Of a stretch of DNA of 64,000 bases, positions 7,924-50,491 are shown piece by piece (position 1 is the first letter of the stretch; every line of letters starts with the position of its first letter). Source of the DNA: Nitrosospira sp. (lineage in GTDB: Bacteria > Pseudomonadota > Gammaproteobacteria > Burkholderiales > Nitrosomonadaceae); assembly GCA_013821425.1 (NCBI GenBank), contig JACDGV010000001.1, forward strand, positions 310,001 to 374,000, written 5' to 3'. Below the pieces are notes generated by a model. It had not been told where the DNA came from and ran no database searches. It saw nothing but the letters and a program-made list of their open reading frames with translations. The translations under genes and the position numbers were made by a program.

Positions 7924-7985
7924 ATATTTTCATATAAGGGTTTGAATCACTCGTAGCGCAACATAAACGAATCGGGAGACTATTC

Positions 7986-10173: not shown

Positions 10174-11001
10174 ATGACCCAGGCAGACGAAAAAAAATCC
10201 ACGGCCGATGTCCTCCCACCCTCTCAACCGGGGAGCCTCCCGCTTACGTCGGCATCAGTAAAAAGCGAACTTCCCGACGCCCAACCGACGCGTGACCTTG
10301 GCGCTGGCCAGCAGGTGCCGTTTCCGATAGTTGGGGTTGGTGCGTCCGCGGGAGGGGTAGAGGCCTTGCAAAAGTTCTTCGATTCTCTCCCCGCAAATCG
10401 AGGAATCGCCTACATTGTCGTGGTGCACCTCGCGCCGGATCATCCCAGCCATTTGGCGGAGATCCTGTCTAAATGTACGTCTATGGCGGTCCTTCAGGTT
10501 GGCAGTGATGTGGCCGTCGAGCCGGACAAGATTTATGTCATCCCCCCCAATCATTACCTGACATTTAGCGATGGCCGGATACACCTTCAACCCATGTCAC
10601 ACCCGCGTGCTTTGCCCCAGGCTATCGATCGTTTATTCATATCGCTAGCGGAAGACCAGCAGGAAAGGGCGATCGGAATTGTCCTTACCGGCGCAAATCA
10701 CGACGGCACTGTGGGGCTCAAAGCCATCAAGGCCGCTGGCGGGATAGTCATTGCCCAGTTGCCGGCCACCGCACAGCATCCCAGCATGCCCCAGAGCGCG
10801 GTGGAAACCGGCCTGGTCGACTACGTATTGGCTGTCGAAGAAATGGGCCACGCTCTCCTGCAATATATTGATCGGTCCAGTTTGTGGCGGTGGGAACAGG
10901 CTCCGGAGTCGACGGAAGAAGAGGCCCGGGCGCTGAGGAAAATCGTTGCTCTGGTATCCACGCGTGGGGGCGGGGACTTCCGTGGGTACAAGGAATGCTG
11001 A
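10174..11001 (+). CDS. CheB methylesterase domain: first piece of a split CheB-CheR-PAS-HK-REC gene
   Basis: From the ATG at 10174 this 275-residue piece carries a CheB-type methylesterase domain with the catalytic Ser in GASAGGVEAL, the His in VVVHLAPDHPSH and the Asp in TGANHDGTVG. It then enters the first helix of a CheR N-terminal domain (ALRKIVALVS ... DFRGYKEC) and stops at TGA 10999-11001. Homologous sensor proteins read straight through this point as one CheB-CheR-PAS-kinase chain. Restoring a single base before 10998 would join this frame to the CheR frame. The stop overlaps an ATG as TGATG, so translational coupling is possible. The frame stays open upstream to 9868, but that part is antisense to psd. 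Confidence 0.8.
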   Translation: MTQADEKKSTADVLPPSQPGSLPLTSASVKSELPDAQPTRDLGAGQQVPFPIVGVGASAGGVEALQKFFDSLPANRGIAYIVVVHLAPDHPSHLAEILSKCTSMAVLQVGSDVAVEPDKIYVIPPNHYLTFSDGRIHLQPMSHPRALPQAIDRLFISLAEDQQERAIGIVLTGANHDGTVGLKAIKAAGGIVIAQLPATAQHPSMPQSAVETGLVDYVLAVEEMGHALLQYIDRSSLWRWEQAPESTEEEARALRKIVALVSTRGGGDFRGYKEC

Positions 11002-12218: not shown

Positions 12219-12236
12219 CTCGAGGATGACTTGCGC

Positions 12237-35064: not shown

Positions 35065-35748
35065 GTGCGCATACTTATAATTGAAGACGATCCAGCGATA
35101 GCCAGCAATCTTTACGATTTTCTCGAAGCCCGTGGTCACGGGGTCGATGCCGCCGCCGATGGCATTACGGGGCTTCATCTTGCCGTTACACAGCAATTCG
35201 ACGGAATACTGCTCGATCTTGGATTGCCGGGCACGGATGGCATTACGCTCTGCCGCAAGCTTCGGCAGGAAGCGCATCTGGATACACCCGTGCTCATGCT
35301 GACGGCGCGCGACACGCTGGAGGACAAGCTGAAAGGTTTCGACTGCGGAGCGGATGATTATCTGGTCAAGCCATTCGCACTGAAAGAAGTCGAAGCGCGT
35401 CTGGTTGCCATTCACAAGCGCCGGAGAGGCACTGTTACCAGCCGTACATTGGAAACGGACGATCTTTCCTTTGATCCGAAGACGCTGTCGATTGTCTTTG
35501 CTGGGGCCAATGTCAAGTTGCCGCCAAAGTGCATCGGTTTGCTGGCGGTAATGATGAGTGAACCTGGCCGGGTTTTCAGCCGCAAGGAACTGGAATCGGA
35601 GGTGTGGGGCGATACGCACGAAACCAGCGATACCTTGCGCAGCCATATGCACGAATTGCGGCGTGCTCTCACCCGTGCCGGCGGCTATGACCCCATAGAA
35701 ACCGTCCATGGACTGGGCTACCGCCTGGCCACACGTGCCCGGGTTTAA
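35065..35748 (+). CDS. OmpR-family response regulator
   Basis: A 227-residue two-domain regulator with a GTG start. The receiver shows the acidic pair in ILIIEDDPAIASN, the phospho-acceptor in ILLDLGLPGTDG, the Thr/Ser switch in VLMLTARD and the Lys in DDYLVKPFA. The C-terminal winged helix includes VFSRKELESEVWG and DTLRSHMHELRRAL, close to the QseB/PmrA/PhoP group. The kinase gene begins inside its last codons. The three TCTTCAC repeats with 11-bp spacing in front of the SulP gene have the form expected of a target for this protein class. Confidence 0.93.
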   Translation: MRILIIEDDPAIASNLYDFLEARGHGVDAAADGITGLHLAVTQQFDGILLDLGLPGTDGITLCRKLRQEAHLDTPVLMLTARDTLEDKLKGFDCGADDYLVKPFALKEVEARLVAIHKRRRGTVTSRTLETDDLSFDPKTLSIVFAGANVKLPPKCIGLLAVMMSEPGRVFSRKELESEVWGDTHETSDTLRSHMHELRRALTRAGGYDPIETVHGLGYRLATRARV

Positions 35749-37003
35749 GCGTGGCCTTCGCCTTCGTGTTGCACTCGCATTTGCAACATTCTGCATCGTT
35801 GTCGTGGGCACCCTCGGGATCAGCCTTTATTTTGCTTCCGATGACATCGAAGAAGCGCATATCGAGCAGATCATCGAAACCGAGATGGATCACCTGCTTC
35901 TGCGTTATCGCGAACGCGCCGACTTCGTGCCGCAGGAGAGTTCGAACCTCGACAAATACATCATCCATGATTCCGCCGAGGAATCCCGGCTGCCTTCCCA
36001 TCTGCAAGGACTCAATTATCGGCGTCACAAGGTATTTCGGGGCCCGGAGGAGGTGCGGGTGGGGGTCCGCCATCTGGATGGGGTCAAATTTCTTGTCGCT
36101 TATGAGATAGGACTTCACGATCAGCGGCAGCAGGAGTTGAGGCTGCTTATCGTTTTATCGCTCATCTCGGTTGTCGGCGTCGCGCTCGTGGTCGGATACC
36201 TTCTGGCAGGCGTGCTGGTCCGACAAGTAACCGATCTTGCCGAACAAGTCAGGCATCTCGCACCGGGCGATTTTCAGGGCGAAACCCTTGCCCAGCCAGG
36301 GCAGGATGAGGAAGTGGCGCAGCTTGCGCGTGCGTTGGACGACTATCAGAACCGTATCTTTCGCATGATCCGGCGCGAGCAGGAGTTTACCGCCAACATC
36401 AGCCATGAGCTGCGCACTCCTATCACCACCATCCTTACGAGTTGCGAGTTGCTCGTTACCGAGCCTGGCCTGTCCGAGCGGACTCGCGTACGCGTAGGAA
36501 TGATCGAAAGCGCGGCGACGCGCATGGGCGAGCAATTGCAGGCCTTGCTGTTCCTTGCCCGCGAACAGGCCCTTGGCATCATGGAACCTGTTGATCTTGC
36601 GGAATGCGTGTACGACGCGGCTGAGCCCCTGTGCGCAGAAATTTATAAAAAAAATCTTAATTTCCAGGTCGAGGTCGAGCCCAAAGCCGTTCTCACCCTA
36701 AACCGGCAGGCGCTTCACACTGCCCTGGTAAACCTGCTCCGCAATGCGGTGCAGTACACCAACAGCGGCTTTATACGCGTGAGTTTCAGCGGCAAACGCC
36801 TTTCCATCGCCGATTCCGGCATCGGTATCGAGCCTTCCTACCTGCCTCTTCTTTATGAGCGCTTCTTTCGTGGATCTACCCAGGGCAAAGGCCTGGGGAT
36901 AGGGCTTGCCATCGTCAAGCGCATCTGCGATCACTATGGCTGGCGCATAGAAGTCGACAGTACGCCAGGGCATGGCGCGACCTTTCATATCATCTTTCCC
37001 TGA
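35735..37003 (+). CDS. EnvZ/QseC-type sensor histidine kinase
   Basis: The most likely start is GTG 35735 (VPGFKRGLRLRVALAF), overlapping the regulator stop; an ATG at 35708 is the alternative. The protein of about 422 residues has a helix at the N-terminus, a periplasmic sensor of about 100 residues (rich in acidic residues and His), a second helix (LLIVLSLISVVGVALVVGYLLA), a HAMP-like linker, the H-box EFTANISHELRTPITTIL and the ATPase boxes LLRNAVQYTNSG, IADSGIGIE and GKGLGIGLAIVKRICDHYG. The ligand is unknown. Its neighbours suggest an inorganic-carbon, pH or ion signal, which is inference. Confidence 0.9.
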   Translation: MPGFKRGLRLRVALAFATFCIVVVGTLGISLYFASDDIEEAHIEQIIETEMDHLLLRYRERADFVPQESSNLDKYIIHDSAEESRLPSHLQGLNYRRHKVFRGPEEVRVGVRHLDGVKFLVAYEIGLHDQRQQELRLLIVLSLISVVGVALVVGYLLAGVLVRQVTDLAEQVRHLAPGDFQGETLAQPGQDEEVAQLARALDDYQNRIFRMIRREQEFTANISHELRTPITTILTSCELLVTEPGLSERTRVRVGMIESAATRMGEQLQALLFLAREQALGIMEPVDLAECVYDAAEPLCAEIYKKNLNFQVEVEPKAVLTLNRQALHTALVNLLRNAVQYTNSGFIRVSFSGKRLSIADSGIGIEPSYLPLLYERFFRGSTQGKGLGIGLAIVKRICDHYGWRIEVDSTPGHGATFHIIFP

Positions 37004-37128: not shown

Positions 37129-38499
37129 ATGAATTCGAATACTACAGATACGTCCGATACAGGAGCTCAATTCCCTAACGAAATACCGCCAGATGAGGTC
37201 GTCGAGCCGGCAGAACCTGTCGCCGTAACCGGAAGAGCGGCGTTTCAGGCCAAGTACTTTGCACGCGATTTCCAGGCTGGACTCATAACCGGATCCATGG
37301 CCATTCCCCTCTCGATCGGCATCGCGATGATGTCGAACTACCCGATCAAGGTCGGGTTGGCCACGGTCGCGTTTGCCTGTTACATCGGCTGGATCAACGC
37401 CTGGATCAGGCCCGGCAACTATATCGGCTGTCCGGGGATTGCAGCAGGTCTGGCGCCCGTGCTGGCAATGGGCGTCGCCCTCTTCGGTATCGAAAACATG
37501 GCGTTCGTTATTTTCCTGGTTTCGGCCATGCAGGCCGTGATATGGAAATTTAACTGGCAGAGATTTCTTTTAATAGCGGTGCCGGGATATCTCGTCGAGG
37601 GGTTGCTGGCTGGAATTGGTTTGAAGATCCTGCTCAAATTTATGGAGTTTACCTATGAAATCCCCCCTGATCAGGAATCTGCCACGGAGTTCTGGAATGG
37701 GGCGCGCCTACAGATGGCGCTCATATCGGGGGTCGGTTTTGCCGTGTTTGTCTACCTGTTCTCCAAGTTCAAGGATACCCAACCTGCCATTCCCTATTTT
37801 GCGTTGATCATCGCCGGTGGCGTGATAGCGCAATTTATGCCGATATCCATGCTGCATGTGGAAGACGTGGACCTGGCGCTGGCCATACCCATGCCAAATT
37901 TTGACAGCGCGCTGACCTGGATGTACGTGATCGGCTTTGCGGCCATGTTGGCAGTTATTGACGTGATCGAACAGGTGATGAGCAACGCCGCCATCGAGAA
38001 AATAGATCCGTTGAAACGCAAGTGCAACAGCAACAACAGCTTGCTGGCGATCTGGATTTCCAATATGGGTGCAAGTTTCTTCGGCGGCATGACCAACCTG
38101 GATGGCCTGGCGAAGAGCACGACCAATCGGCTGGCCGGCGCCATGACCAAGTTTTCCGTCCTGATCGTTGGTTTCGTCGTGACCTTTTTCGTCCTGAACT
38201 CGCAATATCTCGAGTACCTGCCGAAGTTCGCCTTGGCGGCGATCATGATGTTCTCGGGCTGGAAGATGATCCTGGGACTCGTGCACGTTTCCCATCATGG
38301 CCCATATGCCCTGATGCTCGCTGTGCTATGCGGCGGACTGGTCTATAAGGTGGGGATATTCGAGGGGCTGTTGATTGCGATGGCGGTGCATGGCATCGTC
38401 CACTATATGGTTTACCACAACGCCGACAAGATACCGAGCAAGACGATTGTCAAAAAATACTTTGAAAATCTTGCGAAGGGCGGCGGTACTCCTAGCTGA
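37129..38499 (+). CDS. SulP-family anion transporter without STAS domain, candidate bicarbonate importer
   Basis: A 456-residue integral membrane protein with about 11-12 hydrophobic helices. The first transport motif (DFQAGLITGSMAIPLSIGIAM) and the later VIDVIEQVMSNAAIEK and MGASFFGGMTNLDGLAKST match SLC26/SulP-type carriers. The N-terminal 40 residues are acidic and soluble. There is no C-terminal STAS domain: the chain ends soon after the last helix in a short Lys-rich tail. SulP members carry sulfate, bicarbonate (BicA) or other anions. The position next to a DabA cluster makes bicarbonate the leading guess, unproven from sequence. Confidence 0.8.
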   Translation: MNSNTTDTSDTGAQFPNEIPPDEVVEPAEPVAVTGRAAFQAKYFARDFQAGLITGSMAIPLSIGIAMMSNYPIKVGLATVAFACYIGWINAWIRPGNYIGCPGIAAGLAPVLAMGVALFGIENMAFVIFLVSAMQAVIWKFNWQRFLLIAVPGYLVEGLLAGIGLKILLKFMEFTYEIPPDQESATEFWNGARLQMALISGVGFAVFVYLFSKFKDTQPAIPYFALIIAGGVIAQFMPISMLHVEDVDLALAIPMPNFDSALTWMYVIGFAAMLAVIDVIEQVMSNAAIEKIDPLKRKCNSNNSLLAIWISNMGASFFGGMTNLDGLAKSTTNRLAGAMTKFSVLIVGFVVTFFVLNSQYLEYLPKFALAAIMMFSGWKMILGLVHVSHHGPYALMLAVLCGGLVYKVGIFEGLLIAMAVHGIVHYMVYHNADKIPSKTIVKKYFENLAKGGGTPS

Positions 38500-38582
38500 T
38501 CCAAGTAAAGCGGTGCGGGGAGGCGGTTCAAGTCCCCCGCCAAGTCCTGATGAACAGGTGCAGGAAGATTAAGGAGAAGTCA

Positions 38583-39002
38583 TTGTACAAAAAAGTGATG
38601 GTCGCGATTGACGACAGTGAAATATCGCGCGGCGCCCTCCAGGAAGCTGTGCAGATTGCGACTGCTTATGGCGCTCGGCTCAGCATCGTCCACGCGGTGC
38701 AGGGAGCGGAGGATGATTCCGCCGGCTCCAGGAGGCGAGGGGCTGCTCAACTCTTGGAGCAAGCGATGTCTGCGGCGGGTAATAACCTCGCCGCGGAGAG
38801 CCGCGTGTTGGAAGCGGAGGCAGACCTGGGGATTTCCGGCATTCCCGAGGCTATCGCCGGTGCCGTCACCGAGTGGGGAGCTGATCTGCTCGTGGTGGGA
38901 TCACAGGGCCGCCGGGGACTCCAGCGCCTCGTAATTGGCTCGGTGGCGGAGCAATTGATTAGCGAGGTTGGAATCTCTATCTTTCTGGTCCGCCTGCACT
39001 AA
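38583..39002 (+). CDS. Universal stress protein UspA family (first copy, TTG start)
   Basis: A 139-residue single-domain Usp protein. The start is TTG at 38583, supported by AAGGAG directly upstream and by exact alignment with the paralogue at 50075 (both begin with Tyr-Lys-Lys-Val after the start). The nucleotide-binding motif G-x2-G-x9-G-S is intact in GSQGRRGLQRLVIGS, so it probably binds ATP. It lies between the SulP gene and the antiporter-like operon. An upstream in-frame ATG at 38550 precedes the ribosome binding site and is rejected. Confidence 0.88.
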   Translation: MYKKVMVAIDDSEISRGALQEAVQIATAYGARLSIVHAVQGAEDDSAGSRRRGAAQLLEQAMSAAGNNLAAESRVLEAEADLGISGIPEAIAGAVTEWGADLLVVGSQGRRGLQRLVIGSVAEQLISEVGISIFLVRLH

Positions 39003-39271: not shown

Positions 39272-40744
39272 ATGGGAATTCTCAGCATACTTCTCTGGAC
39301 ACCGGCCCTGGGTGTGCTGCTCCTGGCGTTGACGCCCCGCGACAATATCCGCGCAATCCGGTTTTTGGCCCATCTGTTTGCCGCCCTGGCGTTCTTTCTT
39401 AGCTGCTGGCTGGTCGCGGTTTACAATCAGCTTGACGGTGGTTTGCAGTTTGGTGAACAGTTTATGCTTAACCCCAAGCTGGGTACGGCTTTTGCCCTAG
39501 GGATTGACGGCCTGTCGATACCCATGGTTGTTCTGGCAACCTTGCTGACGTCAATCGCGCTACTTGCCTCCTTCTCTATTTCCAGCAGCATCAAAGGTTA
39601 TCACATTTGTATTCTTCTGCTGGAATTCGGCATGTTGGGAGTATTCCTCGCCCAGGATTGGGCGCTGTTTTATATATTTTGGGAATTGACTTTATCTCCG
39701 CTGTTTTTCCTGATTGGCCGCTGGGGCGGATTACGGCGGCACGTGGCAAGCCTTAACTTCGTCCTTTACACGATGGGCGGGTCCATTTTCATGCTCGTCA
39801 GTTTGCTCGCCATCAGCCAGTATATGCCTGAACATGGGAACTCCCTAATGAGTTCGATGAGCATAGCGGCCCAACGGATGCCCCTGAATGAGCAGGTCTG
39901 GGTACTGCTCGGCTTTGTGATCAGCTTCGGTGTCAAGATGCCAATTTTTCCCCTGCATGGCTGGTTGCCGCTGGCTCACGTTGAAGCGCCCAGTCCAGTC
40001 AGTATTCTGCTTTCCGGAATTTTGCTGAAAATGGGTGCATACGGCCTGATCAGAGCGGTAGTGATGCTGCCTGAGGCTGCACAAGTGCTGCAATCGTCGC
40101 TGGTTTTTCTTGCACTGCTAGGCATGATCTACGGCGGATTGCTGGCTTGGCGTCAAACCGACCTCAAAGCCATGGTTGCCTATTCGTCTGTTAGTCATAT
40201 GGGCATTATATTGCTGGACATAGCGACACTGAACAAGACCGGAATGATCGGCGCAGTTTTGCAGATGACCGCGCACGGACTGATCGCGGGCGCGATGTTT
40301 CTGTTGGTCGGGCTGCTCTACGAACGCACTCATACCCGCAACGTCCAGGACTACAGTTCACTGGTCGTCGTGATGCCGCGTTTTGCCCTGTTTATGACTA
40401 TTACGCTGTTCGCCGCAATGGGTTTGCCCGGTTCCGTCGGCTTTATTGCCGAGCTGCATGCTATTGTTGGCGGTTTTCAGCAATGGGGCAACTTGATGGT
40501 GTTTTTCGGTGTGAGCATTCTGATCGGTTCCGCCTATGCCATGCGCACCATTGGCATGTTGTTTACAGGTCCGGTCAAGCCGCAAATGCGGGAGATCGAG
40601 GATTTGCGCACCCCGGAATTGCTGGCGGCGACCATGCTGATTGCGGGTATTGTTTTATTCGGCCTGTGGCCCGCGCCGCTGATCGATTTGTCGGCGGCGA
40701 CCATGAATGAAGTGAATAGCGTGATCAGTCAACGCATTCGATAG
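39272..40744 (+). CDS. NuoM/NdhD-like proton-conducting subunit, first gene of the Dab cluster
   Basis: A 490-residue polytopic membrane protein of the complex I antiporter-like family, about 14 helices. The key proton-path residues are present: Glu in YIFWELTLSP, Lys in FGVKMPIFPLHGWLP, Lys in GILLKMGAYGLIR and Glu in GFIAELHAIVGG. The ATG at 39272 follows TTGAGGGG. No NADH-dehydrogenase core genes (nuoB-I) are nearby, so it is not part of a complex I operon. The 269 bases upstream contain no recognised gene and presumably the operon promoter. DabA starts nine bases after its stop. Confidence 0.92.
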   Translation: MGILSILLWTPALGVLLLALTPRDNIRAIRFLAHLFAALAFFLSCWLVAVYNQLDGGLQFGEQFMLNPKLGTAFALGIDGLSIPMVVLATLLTSIALLASFSISSSIKGYHICILLLEFGMLGVFLAQDWALFYIFWELTLSPLFFLIGRWGGLRRHVASLNFVLYTMGGSIFMLVSLLAISQYMPEHGNSLMSSMSIAAQRMPLNEQVWVLLGFVISFGVKMPIFPLHGWLPLAHVEAPSPVSILLSGILLKMGAYGLIRAVVMLPEAAQVLQSSLVFLALLGMIYGGLLAWRQTDLKAMVAYSSVSHMGIILLDIATLNKTGMIGAVLQMTAHGLIAGAMFLLVGLLYERTHTRNVQDYSSLVVVMPRFALFMTITLFAAMGLPGSVGFIAELHAIVGGFQQWGNLMVFFGVSILIGSAYAMRTIGMLFTGPVKPQMREIEDLRTPELLAATMLIAGIVLFGLWPAPLIDLSAATMNEVNSVISQRIR

Positions 40745-40753
40745 GAGAAAACG

Positions 40754-43700
40754 ATGACGATATCATCTTCCGTATCTCAGGACAACCGCGCACAGATCAT
40801 TGCGGCGCTGGATCATATGGATCACGTCCTTCCTGGACAAGGACCGATTCATGATTTCGTCCACCACAACACTATTCATGGTTTTCAGCATCTGCCGTTT
40901 GAAGAAGCGCTAGCAGCATATGAAGATTTAACGGGCACCTTCGGTTATCTTCCTGAAGCACAAAACCGGGAGTTTTATCAGCGGGGCCGTATTAACGACC
41001 GGGACCTGTTTGCGGCGCTTGCCCATGATCCGGCATTGCAGGCCGAGCAATCCGTCTATACCTCAGATGGCATGACGATTAAACGGAAGGATCTTTACCG
41101 GATCGCTCTTTTATTTGACCTGCAAGCTATTACCGTGAGCCAGTTGAATTGGCAAATCGAAGAAATGAACGCGCTAGGCCGCGTGCAGGCCGATGTGCCT
41201 GAGGCCGTCAGTTGCCGGCTGCTTGCCGACAGTACTGACCAAGCAAGCTCTATCAGACAGTTATGGGAAAGGATTTTAGGTAAACTCGGTTTGGAAGAGG
41301 CAGCCCTGCACCCCGAGAATATGCTCGATTTGTCGGTAGAGCAGGCAGAGGACTGGCTCGAAAAAATTTATCATAGTCATTCACAGGGTAATGGCAGGCC
41401 CGTGCATCAGAAAATGCGGCAGGAAGCCGAGGCTGCATTGGATGAGCTGATGGATCAGGTCGGCGTAAGCATGACCTTGCGGGATTTAATCCTGGCATTG
41501 AGCGGTATCGACATACTCTTCTCTGTTCGCCCCCTGATTATACGTATTTGCGCATCAGCGATGGATGAAGGCATGGCCGCGTGGCAATTGCCTGACCGCA
41601 AGCAATTGGGTTTGTATGCGGCCTGGCGGGCAACAGCGCAATATGATGCCAATGCATTTTTACACGATTTGCCTGATTGGCAACGCATTGTCGCCGAGTC
41701 TCCTGAAGATCCGGTCGACGCCATAATCATGCAACTGACTCACCTCGAAATACCACCTGAAAAATGGGAAGGCTATTTGTGCCGGTTGGCGCTTGAGTTG
41801 CCCGGATGGTCCGGATTAATTAACTGGCGTGAGCATCACCAACAATACCACACTGAGAATGATGCGGCACCAAAACTGGCGGATTATCTTGCTATCCGAA
41901 TGATATTGAACCGGCTATGGCTGGATCAAGCCTGCCGGGAGACCTGGAATATCGAAGCCAGATTGGGATCATTGCAACACTATTTCCGCAAGAATCTTTC
42001 CGAATTCATGGTGCGAAGGCAACTTTATCGGGGCATCCTGCCAGAATACCTGACGCACCTTGCAAAGGCGCTCATCCTCCGCGTGGGATCGGAGCGTCAT
42101 CAGCAGTCAGACTGGCAGCAGCTTGCCGATCTGATGTGGACTTGGCAGCTAAGCCCAATGGCCGAACCCAAGTCCGGGCACTCCGCATTTAGTAGCGGCT
42201 GGCGCCTGTTCCGCTCATGTCAGCATCTGGGATTGAGTGCTGAGCATGTAGACAGAATGCCGCAAAAAGACTTACTGCAAATATTGACAACACTGGATGA
42301 GTTTAATGTCAGGAAGCGCGGTGAGGTCTGGCTTTACGCCTTTGAACATAACTACAGGGAAGATGTTTTCCAGGCCCTCCGCGCCAATCGTAATCGCGGC
42401 CGCTGGGCGAAGCGCGATAGACGCCCTGAAGCACAAGTGGTGTTTTGTATTGATGAGCGTGAAGAAAGTATTCGTCGTCATCTCGAAGAGATCAACCCTG
42501 CTATTGAAACGCTGGGAGCAGCAGGTTTTTTTGGAGTCCCGATGAATTATAGAGGACTGGACGATACTCACACGACAGCCTTGTGTCCAGTGGGCGTTAT
42601 GCCGGTTAACGGGGTCGATGAGATTCCGAGAGAGGGCAGTGAGGAGGTTCTGCGCGCACATAACCGCGGCCGTAATTTTTACAAGTGGCTCGCCTATCTG
42701 TTGAATCAAAGCCTTCGCAGCAGGCTGCTGTTATCTCACGCGGCCATTGATGCACTGGCTCCGTTTACTTTGGCTGGGCTGTTAGGTAAAACATTTTTGC
42801 CTACTTATTTGAACGCGGCCAATAAGAGCCTGCGTCAGAACATTGTAAGGAACGTGCCGACGCAACTCCAGTTCGTTTCTACAACTGCTACCCCGGCAAC
42901 TCAGGAAAATCCTCAGTCGGGTTTCACAGATCGTGAACAGGCTGATCGTATTGCCGGATTTCTGCGTAACGCCGGGTTGACTTACGGGTTCGCGCCGATC
43001 ATTTGCTTCATGGCGCATGGCTCGACGAGTCAGAACAATCCGCACGAAGCCGCCCACGATTGCGGTGCGTGTAGCGGGCGCCGTGGCGGACCGAACGCAC
43101 GTGTATTCGCCGCGATGGCCAATCGTCCTGAAGTGCGCGCATTATTGGCACAACGAGATATCGTGATTCCTGACGACTGCCGGCTCGTTGGCGCAGAACA
43201 TGATACGTGTAGCGACGTCATCACTTGGTACGATGTGGAAGATATCCCTTCGGATTTACGGCCTGCTTTCGATAATCTTAAAGCCCGCATATTGCAGGCC
43301 CGTGCTGCCTCCGCTCAGGAGCGCTGCCGACGTTTTTTTTCTGCCCACCATCCGGCATCCCCAGCGGCAGCCATGCGCCATGTAACGAATCGCTCCAACG
43401 ATCTAAGTCAGGTTCGTCCGGAATACGGGCATGCCACGAATGCTTCAGCAGTCATTGGTCGCCGCTCCGTCACACAGGGGATATTTCTGGACCGGCGCGC
43501 CTTTCTCATTTCCTACGATGCCACGCAGGATCCCGAGGGCAAACTTCTGGAAAACCTGCTACTGACCGTGGGCCCCGTCGGCGCCGGAATTAGTCTCGAA
43601 TACTATTTTTCCACCATCAACAATGAACGTTTTGGGTGTGGTACAAAAGTCCCGCACAACATAATTGGTCTGTTTGGTGTTATGGAGGGAGCTAGCAGCG

Positions 43701-44032
43701 ATTTACGCACTGGTCTGCCAAAACAGATGGTAGAAGTTCATGAAGCGATGCGATTACAAATCATAGTTGAGGCAAAGATTTCGGTGCTGGGGGAAATTTA
43801 CGGTCGCCAGGAAAGCTTGCGCGAGCTGATTGGAGGCGGATGGGTGCTTTTGAGTGCGATTGATCCTGTGACCGCTGAAATTTCTATCTTTGAACGTGGG
43901 GTGGGTTTCGTTCCCTGGCAATCTGAACTAAAAGAATTGCCGCTCCGTGAAAAGTCAGTGGATTGTTACCGAGATCTATCGGTACCGGTATCACCGATAT
44001 TAATAAAGCAGCCCGAAGAGTTCGGAGCTTAA
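40754..44032 (+). CDS. dabA: DabA, zinc-dependent inorganic-carbon transporter subunit (UPF0753/DUF2309)
   Basis: A 1,092-residue soluble, membrane-associated protein, larger than the roughly 830 residues of Halothiobacillus DabA. The beta-carbonic-anhydrase-like zinc site is conserved: C565 and D567 in VFCIDEREES, H755 in MAHGSTSQN and C770 in AAHDCGACSGRRGG. The 15-residue His-Cys spacing matches H524/C539 of the characterised protein. The N-terminus has the family motif VHHNTIHGFQHLPFEEAL. With a DabB-type membrane subunit it is thought to hydrate CO2 one way, energised by ion flow. AGGAG precedes the ATG. It is followed after three bases by the DabB-like gene. Confidence 0.93.
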   Translation: MTISSSVSQDNRAQIIAALDHMDHVLPGQGPIHDFVHHNTIHGFQHLPFEEALAAYEDLTGTFGYLPEAQNREFYQRGRINDRDLFAALAHDPALQAEQSVYTSDGMTIKRKDLYRIALLFDLQAITVSQLNWQIEEMNALGRVQADVPEAVSCRLLADSTDQASSIRQLWERILGKLGLEEAALHPENMLDLSVEQAEDWLEKIYHSHSQGNGRPVHQKMRQEAEAALDELMDQVGVSMTLRDLILALSGIDILFSVRPLIIRICASAMDEGMAAWQLPDRKQLGLYAAWRATAQYDANAFLHDLPDWQRIVAESPEDPVDAIIMQLTHLEIPPEKWEGYLCRLALELPGWSGLINWREHHQQYHTENDAAPKLADYLAIRMILNRLWLDQACRETWNIEARLGSLQHYFRKNLSEFMVRRQLYRGILPEYLTHLAKALILRVGSERHQQSDWQQLADLMWTWQLSPMAEPKSGHSAFSSGWRLFRSCQHLGLSAEHVDRMPQKDLLQILTTLDEFNVRKRGEVWLYAFEHNYREDVFQALRANRNRGRWAKRDRRPEAQVVFCIDEREESIRRHLEEINPAIETLGAAGFFGVPMNYRGLDDTHTTALCPVGVMPVNGVDEIPREGSEEVLRAHNRGRNFYKWLAYLLNQSLRSRLLLSHAAIDALAPFTLAGLLGKTFLPTYLNAANKSLRQNIVRNVPTQLQFVSTTATPATQENPQSGFTDREQADRIAGFLRNAGLTYGFAPIICFMAHGSTSQNNPHEAAHDCGACSGRRGGPNARVFAAMANRPEVRALLAQRDIVIPDDCRLVGAEHDTCSDVITWYDVEDIPSDLRPAFDNLKARILQARAASAQERCRRFFSAHHPASPAAAMRHVTNRSNDLSQVRPEYGHATNASAVIGRRSVTQGIFLDRRAFLISYDATQDPEGKLLENLLLTVGPVGAGISLEYYFSTINNERFGCGTKVPHNIIGLFGVMEGASSDLRTGLPKQMVEVHEAMRLQIIVEAKISVLGEIYGRQESLRELIGGGWVLLSAIDPVTAEISIFERGVGFVPWQSELKELPLREKSVDCYRDLSVPVSPILIKQPEEFGA

Positions 44033-44035
44033 GAC

Positions 44036-45604
44036 ATGGATTCACTGGTTGCTTTGATCCTCTTATTACCATTGGCCGGGGCTTTCTCGATCGGGATCGG
44101 TCAGCTATTTGGCAAGCTTCACGGTGAGGCCGGTGAAGCCCTCACAGCGAATATCGCCACCTGGGCCATTGCCCTCTCGTTTCTCTCGGCACTGGCTTTG
44201 TTGAGTTCGGATTTATTGGGAAAAAACGCCGGTTCATTCAGTGCGGGATCGTGGCTGGGCAGTAATGCCTTAAACATAGAAATGAATTTTATCACCACCG
44301 GTTTCAATGCGGGTCTGGCAACGCTGTTCTCGCTGTTATTGGTTATCGTGACGCGCTTCTCCATTAACTACATCCATAAAGAACCGGGTTTTCACCGGTT
44401 CTTTTTTGTCCTGAGCCTGTTTTCTTCGGCCATGCTGTTGCTCGTGTTATCCGGTAACGCTGTTGGTACTTTCATTGGTTGGGAAATTGCCGGACTATGT
44501 TCTTACCTGCTGATAGCCTTTGCGTATGATCGTCCGATCGCCGCTATTAATGCAACCCGCGTCTTTGTTACCAACCGTATCGGCGATGCCGGTTTTATTC
44601 TTGGGATAGCCCTTTGCTATACCCTGGTTGGGAGCGTCAACTGGAGCAGCCTCAATTCGGGGGCGCCCCAGCTCACCACTGGTACCGCCACTGTAATTGC
44701 CTTGTGCTTTGCCACAGCAGCTTTTGCCAAGTCCGCACAACTGCCATTTACACCATGGCTTGCACGTGCGATGGAAGGGCCGACGCCATCGAGCGCGATT
44801 TTCTATGGCGCGGTGATGATTCATGCCGGCATTTTCCTGATAATTATGCTGCGACCGCTTTTTGAACAGGCCCCATTTGCGATGGGATTACTTGCGGCGG
44901 TAGGTCTGGCAACCGCTGTTTACAGCTTTATTGTTGGCTTAACTCAAACTGATGTTAAAAGCTCGTTAAGCTTCGCTATATCTGGTCAGCTGGGTCTCAT
45001 GTTTCTCGAATGTGGCCTGGGCTTTTGGCAGCTGGCGACCTGGCATCTTTGCGCACACGCGGTCGTGCGTGGATACCAGATTCTGACGGCGCCATCGTTC
45101 CTCCACTATGTGCATGGTAACCCGATGAAGCCCGTCGGTCGCGACATTGCAGGATTACGCTGGGTGTACGTCGCGTCGCTGCAGCGTTTCTGGCTGGACC
45201 CGGTTGTGGATCGTATCCTGATAAGACCCACTTACGGACTGGCGAAGGACCTGGATTATTTCGATGACCATATCGTCGATCGCATCATGGGTGCGCCCGC
45301 CCCGGCCGGCCGCGCAATTTCGTCCCTGGCTCAACTGGAGGAGAAAGTGCTTCGCACCCAGTTTGGCGAAGATACCGGGACGTTCGGCCGCGGTAACGGA
45401 TGGGCCGCTCGGTTTCTTGAATGGCTGGCGGTCATCATGAGCTGGTTTGAGGAGCGCTTGGTATTGCAAGGTATCGGGATGGATGCCATCGATATGGGAC
45501 GCAAGCTCGGGTACGCCGCCAACAAATTTGAAAAACTGATACTTAAGCCCCGCTACCTCGTGCTATTTGTATTCACAGTGTTGCTTTTCGCAGCTTCACT
45601 ATAA
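44036..45604 (+). CDS. dabB: DabB-like (NuoL-type) membrane subunit
   Basis: A 522-residue antiporter-like protein starting three bases after dabA. The first half carries NuoL motifs: Glu in FIGWEIAGLCSYLL, Lys in FAKSAQLPFTPWL, and His in VMIHAGIFLI where NuoM has Lys. The second half is shortened relative to NuoL (613), ending in an amphipathic segment (about residues 365-500, DPVVDRILIRPTYGLAK onward) and one terminal helix. This short form next to DabA is the known DabB layout, so it is the most probable direct partner of DabA. Confidence 0.88.
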   Translation: MDSLVALILLLPLAGAFSIGIGQLFGKLHGEAGEALTANIATWAIALSFLSALALLSSDLLGKNAGSFSAGSWLGSNALNIEMNFITTGFNAGLATLFSLLLVIVTRFSINYIHKEPGFHRFFFVLSLFSSAMLLLVLSGNAVGTFIGWEIAGLCSYLLIAFAYDRPIAAINATRVFVTNRIGDAGFILGIALCYTLVGSVNWSSLNSGAPQLTTGTATVIALCFATAAFAKSAQLPFTPWLARAMEGPTPSSAIFYGAVMIHAGIFLIIMLRPLFEQAPFAMGLLAAVGLATAVYSFIVGLTQTDVKSSLSFAISGQLGLMFLECGLGFWQLATWHLCAHAVVRGYQILTAPSFLHYVHGNPMKPVGRDIAGLRWVYVASLQRFWLDPVVDRILIRPTYGLAKDLDYFDDHIVDRIMGAPAPAGRAISSLAQLEEKVLRTQFGEDTGTFGRGNGWAARFLEWLAVIMSWFEERLVLQGIGMDAIDMGRKLGYAANKFEKLILKPRYLVLFVFTVLLFAASL

Positions 45605-45611
45605 GGCGACG

Positions 45612-47183
45612 ATGGATGCCACCAATTCAATAGCGTTTCCTCTTCTGACGACGCTGACCTTCGTTCCGCTTGCGGCAATGGTTGCCATTTTGTTCTCGCC
45701 TTCAGCGGCTGTTGCACTGCGTTTCGGTTTTGCAGGAACATTATTGACAGTCATGCTAAGCATCTATTTGCTCGTCATTTTTGATGCTGATGTTCCGGGT
45801 ATTCAATTGGCGGAGCAAGTGCATAACCTGGGCTTTACCTACAGCGTGGGTGTCGACGGCGCCAATATTCTGTTTATTCCCCTGACCGCAATTCTTGCGC
45901 TGCTGGCTCTGGTCTACACCTTGACTACCAGACGTGTCACCGATCGCCTGTACATCGCCTGCCTGCTGGGCTATGAGGGTATTCTGATTGGTGCGTTTTG
46001 TGCAATGAATGCGATGCAGTTCTGGCTATGGTGTTTTCTGGAGCTTATTCCAGTTGTTCTGCTGACAATTCGCGGAGGCACGGGACAAAACAGGCGCTGG
46101 GTAGTGGGAATGTTGCTACAACACTGGGGTAGCGGCTTATTGATGACCCTGGCGGGTTTCGTACTGCTTGCGTTCGGCGTGATGGGTACCGGAGAGGTGC
46201 TCACATTTGAGTGGATTACGCTAAAAGAAAGCAATAGCCCTCTGCAGTACGGGACGCTGATTTTTTTCCTTCTGTTCTTTGGTTTTGCCATCCGTATGCC
46301 GCTGTTTCCATTTCACGGTTGGTTGCCGGTACTGGCCGAACAAGGAACGGTCGCCAGTGTGACCATTTTCATCGTGGGTTTGAAACTGGGCATTTATGCC
46401 GTCATCCGTTTTGTTTTACCGGTGATTCCCGATGTTGCCGAACAATGGACGGGTTTCGTAGTAACGCTCGGGTTAATCAGTATCTTCTACGGCGCATTGC
46501 TGGCCCTGATGCAGATCAATATACGGCGGTTGCTGGCTTTTGCCGTTCTTAGTCATACGGGAATGTTGATAATCGGCATTTTCGATTTTAACCTGCATGC
46601 CCTCGAAGGCAGCATTCTTCTGTCCATTGCATATGGGCTCGCAACAGCCGGCATGTTGTTCAGCGTAGGCATGATCTACAAGCGAACCCGCACGGCGTAT
46701 ATCCCTCGGCTCGGTGGGCTTTTTGACACCAGCGCCGCCATAGCATTCCTGTTCGTAATCTCCGCACTGAGCACGATGGTGATGCCCGGCACGCCGGGAT
46801 TCGACGGTGCTCATCTGCTGATTGAAGGCACAATCAAGGGGCAAGGCTGGTTGGTGGCGATTGCAATATTGATAGGAAACGTGATGGCCGCGGGTCTTTT
46901 ACTGCGCGCTTTTCAACAGATATTCATCACGGCGCCCCGGCGCGGCCAGCGGCCCTATGTGCATTCTCCGTACATGGACTCCCAACACTCAGTCAATAAC
47001 GAACGCATTATCGCGGTAGTCATCTGCTCTTTACTCATCGGCACTGGCTTTTATACTACACCGTGGGTGCACGTCATAGACCAGAGTTTACTTTCCGCAG
47101 GCGAGCCGAGCGCGATATACGAAAAGAAGAAGCAACCAAGCCCAGGAGCAGCGCCCCTGGATATCGGGCATGGCCATGACTGA
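45612..47183 (+). CDS. NuoM-like membrane subunit with altered proton-path residues
   Basis: The likely start is ATG 45612, after an AAGG and eight bases past the dabB-like stop, giving 523 residues. Overall layout is NuoM-like, with Glu in LWCFLELIPVVLL and Lys in VGLKLGIYAVIRF. The helix-7 Lys is replaced by Arg in FAIRMPLFPFHGWLP, and the C-terminal Glu of the GFxGE motif is missing (GFDGAHLLIEG). The C-terminal tail is hydrophilic (EKKKQPSPGAA, His-rich end). It overlaps the next subunit gene by 8-14 bases. The changes suggest a specialised or structural role. Confidence 0.85.
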   Translation: MDATNSIAFPLLTTLTFVPLAAMVAILFSPSAAVALRFGFAGTLLTVMLSIYLLVIFDADVPGIQLAEQVHNLGFTYSVGVDGANILFIPLTAILALLALVYTLTTRRVTDRLYIACLLGYEGILIGAFCAMNAMQFWLWCFLELIPVVLLTIRGGTGQNRRWVVGMLLQHWGSGLLMTLAGFVLLAFGVMGTGEVLTFEWITLKESNSPLQYGTLIFFLLFFGFAIRMPLFPFHGWLPVLAEQGTVASVTIFIVGLKLGIYAVIRFVLPVIPDVAEQWTGFVVTLGLISIFYGALLALMQINIRRLLAFAVLSHTGMLIIGIFDFNLHALEGSILLSIAYGLATAGMLFSVGMIYKRTRTAYIPRLGGLFDTSAAIAFLFVISALSTMVMPGTPGFDGAHLLIEGTIKGQGWLVAIAILIGNVMAAGLLLRAFQQIFITAPRRGQRPYVHSPYMDSQHSVNNERIIAVVICSLLIGTGFYTTPWVHVIDQSLLSAGEPSAIYEKKKQPSPGAAPLDIGHGHD

Positions 47184-48681
47184 AGCCGACTTTCCGCTAC
47201 TGAGTCTTGTTATCCTGTTGCCCCTGCTCGGTGCTATAGCGATTGGGTTTATTCACGACTTGAGGCGGGCAAAAAGAGTCGCACTTGCTGTCGCCGTCAT
47301 TGAACTGATTGCCACCCTCCTCGTTGTGTATCTTTTTACCCCTGCAAGCGGCGAGTTTCAGCTTGTGGAAAAATATGCCTGGATCCCGATATTGAATATC
47401 GAGTATCTCGTAGGTGTTGACGGCATATCCGTGCTTTTTCTCCCCATGTCGGCGCTGGTAACATTAATGGCGATTGTTGCTTCATGGAATTCGATACAGC
47501 ATATTCCCAGGTTTCATCTTTCCCTGTTGCTGGCATTGGAAGGCGTCACAATGGGAGTTTTTTCGGCGCTGGATATTGTGTTGTTCTTCCTGTTTTGGGA
47601 ACTCACCCTGCCACCGTTCTTTTTTCTGATCGGGCTGTGGGGCATAGGGTCGCATAGGCGCGGCGCGGCTATGAAATATACGCTGTTCATGCTGTTTGGC
47701 GGTGTGCCGCTACTTCTTGCTATCGTCATGCTCGCGGTCAATCATGCTACTGAGTTGGGTGGAGGGATTCCACAGGATTTATCTTTCAGCTTGCCCATTT
47801 TGCTGCAACACCCTTTGCCCGGGGATTTACAAGTGGTGGTTTTCTTTTTGTTACTGCTGGGGTTCGGGGTGAAAGCGCCACTTTTTCCATTTCACACCTG
47901 GTTGCCTACCGCGGCAATGGAGGGTCCTGCACATATAACAGCCTTGCTTACCGGTCTGAAACTAGGAGTCTACGGAATTTTACGCTTCACTATCCCGCTG
48001 ACGCCTTCCGCTTCTGTCGAGTTCAGCTGGATGCTGAGCATCCTCGGTGCTGTCACGCTAATCTATGGTGCGCTGATTGCCCTGCAGCAGACCAATTTAC
48101 GCTCATTACTGGCCTACGCCAGTATCAGTCACGTGGGGCTGGTGATAGTCGGAATCGCATCGCTGAACATGCAGGGGATTCAAGGCGCAGTTTTTCAGTT
48201 GATCAACTTTACCGTGGTTGCAAGTTCGATGATGCTTCTTGCGGGGTTTATTCAACACAGGTTAGGGAGCACCGAGGTTATCCACCTTGGCGGACTGGCG
48301 AAAGTGATGCCGAGGTTGGCGGCTTTTTATTTCCTGTTCACATTGGCAAGCATAGGAGTTCCCGGAACGAATGGATTCCCGGCGGAATTGCTGCTGATAA
48401 TCGGAGCGCTGAAGGCACATCCGAGTCTGGGGGTGGCCGCATTGGCCGGTGCGATCCTTGGCGCAGCCTATATGCTTTCGTTTGCCCGCCGCGCGTTCTT
48501 TGGCCCTATCGTGCATGGTGACGTCAGTCAGACGCAGGATTTGCGGCCCCGCGAACTCATATTATTGTGTGCCCCGGCTCTTTTGATTCTGGTATTTGGT
48601 TTTTTCCCCAATAGCGTATTGCATATTAGCCAGTCCGCGTCTGAAGCCTGGTTAAATAGACTGCTCAGCTTCGTCCCCTAG
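47170..48681 (+). CDS. NuoM-like proton-conducting subunit, last membrane gene of the Dab cluster
   Basis: A 503-residue antiporter-like protein overlapping the previous gene; ATG 47170 or 47176 can serve as start. All four expected residues are present: Glu in LFWELTLPPFFF, Lys in FGVKAPLFPFHTWLP, Lys in LTGLKLGVYGILRF and Glu in NGFPAELLLIIG. It has the usual 14 or so helices. Translational overlap ties it to the cluster. It is followed by a 178-base gap before the carbonic-anhydrase-like gene. Confidence 0.92.
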   Translation: MAMTEADFPLLSLVILLPLLGAIAIGFIHDLRRAKRVALAVAVIELIATLLVVYLFTPASGEFQLVEKYAWIPILNIEYLVGVDGISVLFLPMSALVTLMAIVASWNSIQHIPRFHLSLLLALEGVTMGVFSALDIVLFFLFWELTLPPFFFLIGLWGIGSHRRGAAMKYTLFMLFGGVPLLLAIVMLAVNHATELGGGIPQDLSFSLPILLQHPLPGDLQVVVFFLLLLGFGVKAPLFPFHTWLPTAAMEGPAHITALLTGLKLGVYGILRFTIPLTPSASVEFSWMLSILGAVTLIYGALIALQQTNLRSLLAYASISHVGLVIVGIASLNMQGIQGAVFQLINFTVVASSMMLLAGFIQHRLGSTEVIHLGGLAKVMPRLAAFYFLFTLASIGVPGTNGFPAELLLIIGALKAHPSLGVAALAGAILGAAYMLSFARRAFFGPIVHGDVSQTQDLRPRELILLCAPALLILVFGFFPNSVLHISQSASEAWLNRLLSFVP

Positions 48682-48859
48682 GGCTGATTGATGCAAGTTT
48701 AAAAGATGGGCGGCGGGTTCGAACATTCACTCGACGGAAGCGATTGCGATATGAAAACACTGAAAGGACAACGGCGCTTGGGGCCTCTCGCCTCCCTGAA
48801 ACAGCCATGCTATAGTTTTATAAACCTTTTAACTTTTCTTGATGGAAAATGGAGACCAC

Positions 48860-49936
48860 ATGAGTAACTCAAACACTGGAATTGACTATCTGCTTGAACT
48901 GAACGCACGCCACTCCCAGGCCTTTATTGATGTGGCGACGGAACGCCGAAGATACCGGGGAGAGCATCCGACGGAAATCGCAGCGCTCAAGTGCATGGAT
49001 GGCCGGCTACACCTGCCCGTTATGACTCAAACGGCGCTGGGTATCATCCAGCCTTTTCGTAATCTGGGCGGTAAATTCAACCTGGGGTGGCCATTTTTCC
49101 AGGCCACTTTGGATCATTGGGTCCAGTATTCCATTAGTCGTGGCCGGTACTGCGTGATTTTTGTAACTTATCATTATGCCCGTGGTGACGTACACCGCGG
49201 ATGCAGGGGATTCAATTACGATGTCGACGCTGCGAAAAATACCGCTATACAGCTCAAGGATCAGTTTGCCCGCGTGTACGGGAAGGGAGCCGTCGTTCCG
49301 ATTGTTTGCGGAATTGAGACCGATCTTGATGCTCTTATCTTGCACGCCGATGACGGGCGTGCCATCGACCTGGCGGAAGCGAGGGGCTCGTCCCAGTTCG
49401 AACTGGAAGGGCTGCTGCACTCGCTCTACCCCTCAATGCCTGAGCGCATCGTTCTGGACCTGGTGCCGCTGGTTGCGGGCAATATCAGGCACATCGCGGA
49501 AATCCGGGCTTCGAACAGGCCCATCGAGCAAGCCGAGCATAAGGAATGGGTATTGGGAATAGGACGCGGCTTCGACTGGCTGCATGCGATCAATACGGCG
49601 TTCATCGTCGGTCCTTTCGACCCCCATCTTTCCGAAGCTATCGAAACAGCCGCCAAGCTCCTGAAAGGAAACATTGATGACGGCCGCGTCGACCCGAGCG
49701 GTATCGTGCTCATGACCTCAGCCGCGTACCGCGAACTTGGGCCAGAACATGAGCTAGCCAAAGAGAAGGCGTTGTTCTTAAGCAAGTTTGCTCTCGATAT
49801 CATTAAAGACAAGGTTCAGGATCTAGTCCCTCATCTACAGATACTTACCGGCTACACGGATATGAGTACAAGGAAATTTGAAGTACTCGAGCGTATCGAC
49901 AGGGCCGGTGCCCGGGCTGTCGGTAAAGCGGCCTAG
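48860..49936 (+). CDS. Putative beta-carbonic-anhydrase-like zinc protein
   Basis: From the ATG at 48860 (GGAG eight bases upstream) this 358-residue soluble protein has no signal peptide or membrane helix. It contains the beta-carbonic anhydrase zinc signature: C45-x-D47-x-R49 in KCMDGRLHLP and H112-x-x-C115 in DVHRGCRGFNYD. The 67-residue spacing is somewhat longer than in classical beta enzymes and near that of the carboxysomal CsoSCA class. The rest of the chain (about residues 120-350) has no motif I can name. Position directly after the Dab cluster supports a CO2/bicarbonate role. Activity and zinc binding are inference. An alternative start at 48839 lies before the ribosome binding site. 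Confidence 0.7.
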   Translation: MSNSNTGIDYLLELNARHSQAFIDVATERRRYRGEHPTEIAALKCMDGRLHLPVMTQTALGIIQPFRNLGGKFNLGWPFFQATLDHWVQYSISRGRYCVIFVTYHYARGDVHRGCRGFNYDVDAAKNTAIQLKDQFARVYGKGAVVPIVCGIETDLDALILHADDGRAIDLAEARGSSQFELEGLLHSLYPSMPERIVLDLVPLVAGNIRHIAEIRASNRPIEQAEHKEWVLGIGRGFDWLHAINTAFIVGPFDPHLSEAIETAAKLLKGNIDDGRVDPSGIVLMTSAAYRELGPEHELAKEKALFLSKFALDIIKDKVQDLVPHLQILTGYTDMSTRKFEVLERIDRAGARAVGKAA

Positions 49937-50074
49937 ATCTGAGCCAGGGAACGATCTACTAATCAAGAGCCGGTGGATAAACGCCCAGCGCCGGCGAACG
50001 CTGGTGCAACGGTCCAGTTTGTTACCGGATCTCTGCCCTTTAAAAATGCAACAGCTCAAACGAGGACGCTTATC

Positions 50075-50491
50075 ATGTACAAAAAAGTCGTAGTTGCTAT
50101 CGACGATAGCGAAGTATCCCAGAGTGCGCTTCAGGAAGCGGTACAGATCGCCGCCAGTTACAGCGCCAGGCTTGTCATCATTCACGCCCTTCAGACAACG
50201 CGGGATACGTCGGATATAACCCGGTTCGCAGCCATCCAACTGCTGGAGCAGGCCAAGGCAGCCGCCGGTGAGGCAAAGACCGTCGAAACCCGCCTGGTGG
50301 AAGCCGATGCGGATCATGGCCTTAATGGGGTTGCGGAGACCATAGCCGATGCCGTTTCCCAGTCTGAAGCCGATCTGCTCGTGGTTGGGTCACAAGGCCG
50401 TCGCGGCCTCGAACGCCTCGTTATCGGTTCCGTAGCTGAAAAGCTGATCAGCACCGTGGGCATTTCCATCTTTATAGTCCGGCTGCATTAG
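50075..50491 (+). CDS. Universal stress protein UspA family (second copy)
   Basis: A 138-residue Usp protein, ATG 50075 with GAGG upstream. It is very similar along its whole length to the copy at 38583: shared MYKKV start, VAIDDSE, ALQEAVQIA, QLLEQA, ADLLVVGSQGRRGL and a common end in VRLH. The ATP-binding motif GSQGRRGLERLVIGS is intact. The two copies stand at opposite ends of the Dab cluster, pointing to duplication and probably joint expression with it. An upstream open frame from 49973 lacks support. Confidence 0.9.
   Translation: MYKKVVVAIDDSEVSQSALQEAVQIAASYSARLVIIHALQTTRDTSDITRFAAIQLLEQAKAAAGEAKTVETRLVEADADHGLNGVAETIADAVSQSEADLLVVGSQGRRGLERLVIGSVAEKLISTVGISIFIVRLH

Follow-up and report, generated by a model that had tools for sequence, protein, structure and literature searches.

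A DabA gene cluster of Nitrosospira sp. with four antiporter-like genes that may encode a complex-I-like, CO2-hydrating membrane complex

We analysed a stretch of 64,000 nucleotides (the window) from the genome of Nitrosospira sp., in which five genes on the + strand at 39272–48681 follow one another in the order M1–DabA–DabB–M2–M3. The cluster and its neighbours comprise the following features:

35065..37003, +, two-component system (response regulator 35065–35748, histidine kinase 35708–37003; Pfam), a possible regulator
37129..38499, +, SulP-family transporter, 456 aa (PF00916, 83 bits), possibly for an anion or bicarbonate
38550..39002, +, universal stress protein (Usp) (PF00582, 91.5 bits)
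39272..40744, +, M1, NuoM-like antiporter-type subunit, 490 aa (PF00361, 223 bits)
40754..44032, +, DabA, 1092 aa (PF10070, 822 bits, cut-off 25)
44036..45604, +, DabB-like (NuoL-like) subunit, 522 aa (PF00361, 135 bits)
45612..47183, +, M2, NuoM-like subunit (PF00361, 126 bits; frame open from TTG 45567)
47176..48681, +, M3, NuoM-like subunit (PF00361, 203 bits; alternative start 47170)
48839..49936, +, CsoSCA/beta-carbonic-anhydrase-like protein, 365 aa (PF20686, a weak 19 bits, under the 21.5 cut-off)
49973..50491, +, second Usp, a paralogue of 38550–39002 with 62% identity

The genes of the cluster are separated by short gaps or overlap: M1 and DabA lie 9 bp apart and DabA and DabB 3 bp apart, DabB and M2 are separated by 7 bp (ATG start at 45612) or overlap by 38 bp (TTG start at 45567), and M2 and M3 overlap by 8–14 bp. 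Pfam and NCBIfam models confirmed the original prediction that DabA is packed here with four antiporter-like genes. Its statement that the cluster holds no other complex I genes was also borne out, as only PF00361 and PF10070 proteins occur among the five genes and gaps of at most 9 bases leave no space for another. The NuoL-, NuoM- and NuoN-type genes of the genome are on a separate contig (C4:15378–19792), and more PF00361 gene pairs are on C35 and C46; the names NuoL/M/N and Mrp for genes on these three contigs were assigned by reading the sequences. With this run elsewhere and DabA inside the set, a misplaced piece of complex I was ruled out. Scans for transcription signals yielded nothing usable (10 promoter-like sites versus 11.4 expected, and 25 terminator-like sites versus 16.6 expected).

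DabA carries the enzyme domain of the DAC/DAB family at 822 bits, and the NuoL-like DabB partner gene of this family is present at 44036–45604. In an alignment to 9rd0_A, residues C565, D567, R569, H755 and C770 match the zinc site of DAB2, for which the zinc ligands and Asp–Arg dyad of DabA2 (C351, D353, R355, H524 and C539) served as reference. Across the 48 DabA loci of the window type in our sample (window included), C351 was found in 47/47 and D353 in 47/47 readable sequences, R355 in 46/47, and H524 and C539 each in 48/48. The finger hairpin (approximately 630–681) carries Asp666 in place of Glu444, a residue that DAB2 requires. This position is glutamate in 23/23 DAB2-like and 9/9 readable DAB1-like sequences and in 0/48 window-type loci, 23 of which have no acid there at all; the loci that we call DAB1-like were assigned by gene order and tree. 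A comparison of the predicted DabA model with solved folds (library to 8 April 2026) gave no match at E 0.001 or better, and DAB2 entries were absent among the matches listed. The length of DabA was ruled out as the reason for the extra subunits, because DAB1-like DabAs of at least 1000 aa adjoin one antiporter-like gene.

With SulP and antiporter-like genes adjoining DabA, the cluster could also be read as an MpsAB-like importer of bicarbonate coupled to sodium, which might act together with the SulP transporter; excerpts of PMC13144422 present MpsAB as a proposed sodium/bicarbonate symporter. We regard this as quite unlikely given the conserved catalytic zinc site and the statement, again from an excerpt, that DAB2 does not require sodium.

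The DabB-like protein is best fitted by NuoL models (NCBIfam) over its first 370 residues, with scores under their cut-offs. The NuoL fold spans approximately the first 360 residues, the stretch for TM12–15 (about four helices) is missing, and the C-terminal tail is of unsure structure, with low confidence in the predicted model. An extended lateral helix of NuoL type in DabB was dropped as proof of an array, as the pLDDT of the model is mostly <50 there. The equivalent of NuoL Glu144, the TM5 glutamate of the complex I ion pair, is kept in 40/40 window-type DabBs, versus 0/22 DAB2-like and 0/13 DAB1-like DabBs (0/35 together).

All three remaining subunits score above the NCBIfam NuoM subfamily cut-off of 264 bits (M1, 469; M2, 278; M3, 470). 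The charged residues of the proton path are retained in M1 (TM5 Glu in 38/39 readable sequences, TM7 Lys in 39/40, TM8 Lys in 40/40 and TM12 Glu in 39/40) and in M3 (36/36, 36/36, 35/35 and 34/35, respectively). The TM11 His of NuoM is found in 0/35 M3 sequences, which makes M3 an imperfect NuoM; NuoN of the same genome also lacks this His. In M2 the four charged residues are mostly lost and the window copy is degenerate, but M2 of loci classified under other phyla retains TM7 Lys (5/5) and TM12 Glu (4/4), so the degeneracy is a trait of Pseudomonadota rather than of the whole type. In the antiporter tree, M1 rows cluster together, and M2 and M3 form one clade. Judged by these residues, the four antiporter-like subunits look like two complete channels (M1 and M3), one partial and one degenerate. 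The four proton channels originally predicted are therefore too many, owing to the residues lost from M2 and the TM12–15 stretch missing from DabB.

M1 and M3 bear the charged residues of a pumping NuoM and DabB retains the complex I ion pairs, features that would also suit a machine running the other way, with ions pumped outward by the dehydration of bicarbonate or by some other exergonic reaction of DabA. Such an ion-exporting direction of the DabA reaction was imagined in 2017, in the available passages of PMC5700660. This reading appears very improbable: DabA carries the zinc site of DabA2, and parts of PMC13144422 describe the DabA2 complex as hydrating CO2 in one direction only, driven by protons; RuBisCO is present in the host; and relatives hold simpler DABs at the same locus.

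The exact order M1–DabA–DabB–M2–M3 recurs in 34/48 loci, with a further 11/48 cut by contig ends and 3/48 deviating. For this type, then, the NuoM-like genes are not lost from most related loci, the outcome that had been named beforehand as refuting the prediction. An arrangement shared by so many loci is far from chance, and no more than 214 bases separate matched genes in the 34 exact-order loci, so that nothing sizeable is inserted. The full set also survives the break-up of the operon in three genomes: in G134, one contig carries M1–DabB–M2–M3 as a group and a different contig carries DabA, and M1 and M3 lie apart from DabA and the DabB–M2 gene in G128 and G259. In two lineages, DabB–M2 is one gene with no internal stop (L091 and L092, 1045 aa; L010, 1153 aa, with the M2 part shortened to approximately 375 residues). 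Apparent M1–DabA and M2–M3 fusions in L090, L113 and L114 contain too few hydrophobic segments and were rejected as read-ins in other frames. Only M1–DabA is visible in the stretch read of one locus (L102, genome G389). The recurrent order, the survival of break-up and the DabB–M2 fusions support the view that the additional subunits belong to this DabA type as a conserved feature.

The grouping of four antiporter-like genes without DabA in G134, together with a DabA that lies within a gene run including an Mrp-like module in G085 (L107), would be expected if M1, M2 and M3, with or without DabB, formed a separate proton or cation antiporter whose only link to DabA is co-expression, for instance to deal with the proton released by CO2 hydration. 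We consider this unlikely, because two lineages have M2 fused to DabB, which homology identifies as the partner of DabA, and M1 in front and DabB behind place DabA inside the set in 34/48 loci. The small Mrp subunits B, C, E, F and G, moreover, have no room in the gaps between the five window genes, to which this check was confined.

In the DabA tree, all 48 loci fall into one clade of 58 rows (100*), the other ten rows being L105 and nine loci whose DAB is built differently; the window-type loci are a third DAB clade. The nine simpler relatives also lack the finger glutamate (0/9) and retain the equivalent of NuoL Glu144 (8/8 readable DabBs), so these two features mark the lineage and not subunit number alone. 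In five genomes of the same genus, a DabA–DabB–SulP cluster occupies the chromosomal position of the window cluster. This position is recognizable in both types by the two-component system, which adjoins the different DAB type of these five loci at 85–94% identity. The simpler arrangement could mean that only DabA and DabB matter and that the extra subunits are dispensable, which we judge extremely improbable given that the set is conserved in 34/48 loci and kept even when scattered, and that the residues of M1 and M3 are strongly conserved.

Among characterized systems, DAB2 (DabA2–DabB2 of Halothiobacillus neapolitanus) resembles the window in its PF10070 enzyme, its C/D/R/H/C zinc site and its NuoL-like partner. 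It has one antiporter-like subunit, finger Glu444 and a DabB2 without the TM5 Glu ion pair, whereas the window has four subunits, Asp666, a retained TM5 Glu and a DabB without the TM12–15 stretch. The original description of characterized DABs as one DabA with one DabB was slightly too simple, as DAB1 is treated in excerpts of PMC13144422 as a three-subunit system that also has a small membrane protein. DAB1 shares the long DabA and a NuoL-like subunit with the window, but has a single NuoL-like gene preceding DabA, keeps the finger glutamate and belongs to a separate DabA clade; its gene order (NuoL-like and small gene in front of DabA) is not matched by the window type. In the passages of PMC5700660 available, extra NuoM genes adjoining DabA were already noted in 2017 and subunit number was proposed to set ion number. 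In the COG3002 clade C operons of COGNAT (2017), DabA lies upstream of a NuoL homologue, and NuoM and SulP genes are also present; the window type very probably belongs to these operons. The full gene order, the residues and the count of four are absent from those passages, which assume ion export.

The membrane arm of complex I shares NuoL- and NuoM-like subunits, conserved Lys and Glu residues and ion pairs with the window, but the cluster has no quinone, NADH or connecting subunits, and a carbonic-anhydrase-like protein replaces the redox arm. In cyanobacterial NDH-1MS the hydrating subunit differs from DabA, and the window cluster contains no redox genes. Parts of PMC13144422 describe NDH-1MS as a membrane complex of complex I type that is likewise linked to CO2 hydration and is driven by ferredoxin oxidation.

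Because many other bacteria carry this set of five genes too, its products probably form a single larger machine, in which the proton gradient across the membrane would drive the trapping of CO2 as bicarbonate. We propose, with a probability of about 0.6, that the five genes encode one putative membrane complex of the DAC/DAB kind, complex-I-like, proton-driven and CO2-hydrating, with a coupling route that differs from that of DAB2. The predicted larger complex with several channels is in keeping with the conservation of the set, its survival of operon break-up and the DabB–M2 fusion, although not with four channels. DabB would dock DabA and have M2 as its lateral neighbour; M3 and M1 would follow further out or lie on the opposite side, in the manner of the complex I membrane arm. 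Protons may flow inwards through M1 and M3, with a half-channel built by DabB and the DabA finger as a possible further route; M2 would act as a structural or relay subunit. Movement would be relayed along the ion-pair chain to DabA, which would convert CO2 to bicarbonate in one direction and deliver it to the cytosol of this autotroph, in which carboxysome genes were not detected. If each turnover used two or three protons, a given bicarbonate accumulation could be attained at a lower proton-motive force than with one.

A bolder version, to which we give somewhat less than even odds, would add a third class to the proton-driven carbonic anhydrases. Here a complex-I-like array of two complete NuoM-type channels, one relay subunit and a NuoL-type subunit of reduced length would power the hydration of CO2. 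Energy would pass through lateral ion pairs rather than the DAB2 finger glutamate, in effect like the membrane arm of complex I in reverse, using at least two protons per CO2. If so, one CO2-trapping enzyme exists in versions with a single and with four proton-channel-like subunits, and the long-standing bioenergetic question of whether the number of such subunits sets the protons per reaction could be tested directly; the one-DabB and four-subunit versions that share a chromosomal locus within one genus lend themselves to such a comparison. The inorganic carbon supply of carboxysome-free ammonia oxidisers and other autotrophs would be explained as well.

The host is a probable ammonia-oxidising bacterium. 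AMO genes were not found in its genome, in a first search and then in a search of 10 genomes that detected AMO in 7, and no carboxysome genes were detected. RuBisCO is present in the host and in 33/37 examined Pseudomonadota genomes; it was not found in the other 4/37, and was found in 0/5 MAGs classified under other phyla. Carbon fixation is thus not the sole setting of the five-gene type. The neighbouring genes recur elsewhere: a SulP gene lies near DabA in several other loci, and a beta-carbonic-anhydrase-like gene adjoins the DAB cluster in several relatives. The protein at 48839..49936 carries C52-x-D54-x-R56 and H119-x2-C122, a motif that is invariant in 5/5 aligned homologues.

The five genes form a tight same-strand cluster, listed here with its surroundings:

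39272-48681, forward strand: M1 (NuoM-like), DabA, DabB/NuoL-like, M2 and M3 (both NuoM-like), in this order
upstream of the cluster: two-component system, SulP transporter, Usp gene
downstream of the cluster: gene with a beta-carbonic-anhydrase motif, then a second Usp gene
31260-56993: region compared with loci L062-L066 for a swap of the chromosomal slot

Gene and junction mapping bore out the original observation that M1, a DabB-like subunit, M2 and M3 are packed around DabA: neighbouring genes are separated, or overlap, by 3 to 14 bases (starting M2 at TTG 45567 would give a 38-base overlap instead). It was also right that no other complex I genes belong to the cluster; the NuoL/M/N-type run of this 3.14-Mb genome of 66 contigs lies on a different contig. 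The closest named DabA loci are in Nitrosomonas strains (63-67% identity), and other genomes within the family reach 79%. This host probably belongs to the ammonia oxidisers of the Nitrosomonadaceae, because five near-complete same-genus genomes each carry three AMO genes; none was found in the window's own assembly, which is fragmented. The product of the downstream gene at 48839-49936 is CsoSCA-like and carries the full zinc motif of beta-carbonic anhydrases; no carboxysome shell genes were detected in the genome. The protein's role is puzzling, as a free cytosolic carbonic anhydrase would counteract bicarbonate accumulation.

Neighbourhoods were read for 93 DabA matches, window included, with genes placed by tblastn. 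Among the 48 loci picked for M1 or M2 beside DabA (the third type), 34 have the exact order M1-DabA-DabB-M2-M3, 11 are cut at contig ends and are consistent with it, and 3 deviate; L003/L004, L005/L110, L051/L052 and L011/L012 are near-copies. Across the 34 exact-order loci, no more than 214 bases separate the matched parts of adjacent genes. The NuoM-like genes have thus not been lost from most related loci of the type; such a loss would have counted against a larger unit. Six loci (L008-L013) come from metagenome-assembled genomes (MAGs) labelled Acidobacteria, Chloroflexi, Rubrobacter or Chthoniobacterales; these labels may be wrong because the contigs are just 8-16 kb long. In L008, L009 and L013, a fifth antiporter-like gene, truncated at the end of the contig in L008, lies 3′ of M3 and is related to one on contig C46 of the window's genome. 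That contig (66000-85500, locus L068) carries another antiporter-type cluster, an MnhB-like protein and two antiporter-like genes near Usp, acetate kinase and phosphoketolase.

A quick DabA tree, built after the 48 loci were picked and carrying long-branch warnings, places 23 rows in a DAB2-like clade, 11 in a DAB1-like one and 58 in a third clade, with L107 standing by itself, the DAB1 and DAB2 labels being our reading of gene order and similarity. Ten third-clade rows fall outside the 48: nine differently built DABs (L062-066, L106, L108, L120, L121) and L105. In L106 and L120 a single, diverged antiporter-like gene (26% to M2/M3) comes after DabA-DabB, possibly a two-subunit intermediate. 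L107, sister to the third clade, adjoins an Mrp/MBH-type module in a same-strand run (G085, contig C1, ~870-12780) of SulP-DabA-MnhE-MbhD/E-MnhB-NuoK-like-antiporter-NuoL-like-NuoM-like.

Deviating loci support the five genes as a set. Genome G134 (L105) has DabA alone, with M1-DabB-M2-M3 grouped on a different contig; in G128 and G259 (L091, L092) a single DabB-M2 gene adjoins DabA, and M1 and M3 lie elsewhere in the genome. L010 holds a third DabB-M2 fusion, its M2 portion shortened to about 375 residues, and all three fused frames lack internal stops. L102 shows M1-DabA alone within the stretch read.

The zinc site of DAB2 is retained in DabA (C565, D567, R569, H755 and C770 in the window). 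Replacement of the finger residue Glu444 is reported to have abolished DAB2 activity (PMC13144422). This position is Glu in 23/23 DAB2-like and 9/9 readable DAB1-like sequences and in 0/48 of the third type, where it is Asp in 25 (Asp666 in the window) and non-acidic in 23; the Glu is missing too from the nine simpler third-clade relatives. A DabA model (72.9) places a helical hairpin at 630-681, the expected finger position, and had no solved-fold match in a structure library ending April 2026.

According to PMC13144422, DabB2 lacks the complex I ion-pair glutamate, and restoring it halves growth yield. The glutamate is present in 40/40 DabBs of the third type and 8/8 readable DabBs of its simpler third-clade relatives, and in 0/22 and 0/13 in the two other clades. 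A stretch of ~180 columns (TM12-15 by position) is missing in 13/13 aligned Pseudomonadota DabBs of the type and present in 4/4 from other phyla. The window's DabB model (mean pLDDT 65, with an unreliable tail) aligns with complex I NuoL along some 365 columns.

Residues of the NuoM-like subunits were counted in rows of at least 270 amino acids without a stop. The charged residues of TM5, TM7, TM8 and TM12 are conserved, near-exceptionlessly, in M1 and M3; M3 lacks the TM11 His (0/35), as does NuoN. In Pseudomonadota M2, the usual TM5 position never holds Glu (0/37; an acid lies two residues further on in 31/37), Arg replaces the TM7 Lys in 37/37 and the TM12 Glu is lacking (0/35). M2 of other phyla retains the TM7 Lys (5/5) and TM12 Glu (4/4). 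The several proton channels originally proposed therefore cannot number four: with key M2 residues lost and the DabB TM12-15 stretch missing, only M1 and M3 of the window look, as judged from sequence, like complete channels, DabB being partial and M2 degenerate. In a quick-method tree of 100 antiporter-like proteins, M1 falls near complex I NuoM and DabB near NuoL; M2 and M3 share a single clade (97*), from which we infer that M2 probably arose through duplication of an M3-like gene.

Conserved residues support zinc chemistry in DabA, and conservation and fusion support a predicted single complex of five subunits; the presumed reaction direction is supported by homology to DAB2. We infer the coupling path and proton number: protons would enter via M1 and M3, driving DabA through DabB, and the arrangement would work like the complex I membrane arm in reverse. 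The proposed advantage at low proton-motive force is plausible for a low-energy autotroph. A 2017 paper (PMC5700660) noted that DabA genes upstream of a NuoL homologue frequently carry extra NuoM and SulP genes and proposed that subunit number might determine ion number. Extra NuoM genes beside DabA were thus already known; the literature searched, judged from titles, abstracts and passages, yielded no account of these five genes as a unit, of the residues in it or of what it does.

Full-strength matches to the profile of this DabA type (at least 1000 bits, or split pairs summing above 1000) occur in 18/369 genomes of the class and 11/300 of the order, the window's genome being counted in both. 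In the phyla to which the Acidobacteria and Chloroflexi seeds belong, the figures are 1/247 and 1/251, each the seed itself; one more genome of the Acidobacteria group (G887) matches partially, at 678 bits. RuBisCO was found in 33/37 Pseudomonadota genomes with this DabA type and in 0/5 such MAGs of other phyla; a carboxysome shell protein was found in 1/19 genomes searched that have this type, and not in the window's genome.

In a first-look set of the genus, DabA occurs in 14/23 genomes, as the long type in 5 and the short type in 9. Five of the nine short-type loci were read (L062-066); in these same-genus genomes a DabA-DabB-SulP cluster occupies the same chromosomal slot, sharing with the window dehydroquinate synthase, HD, URO-D, response regulator and kinase genes on one side and an M48 peptidase and the next gene on the other. 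The long and short DAB types are probably functional alternatives.
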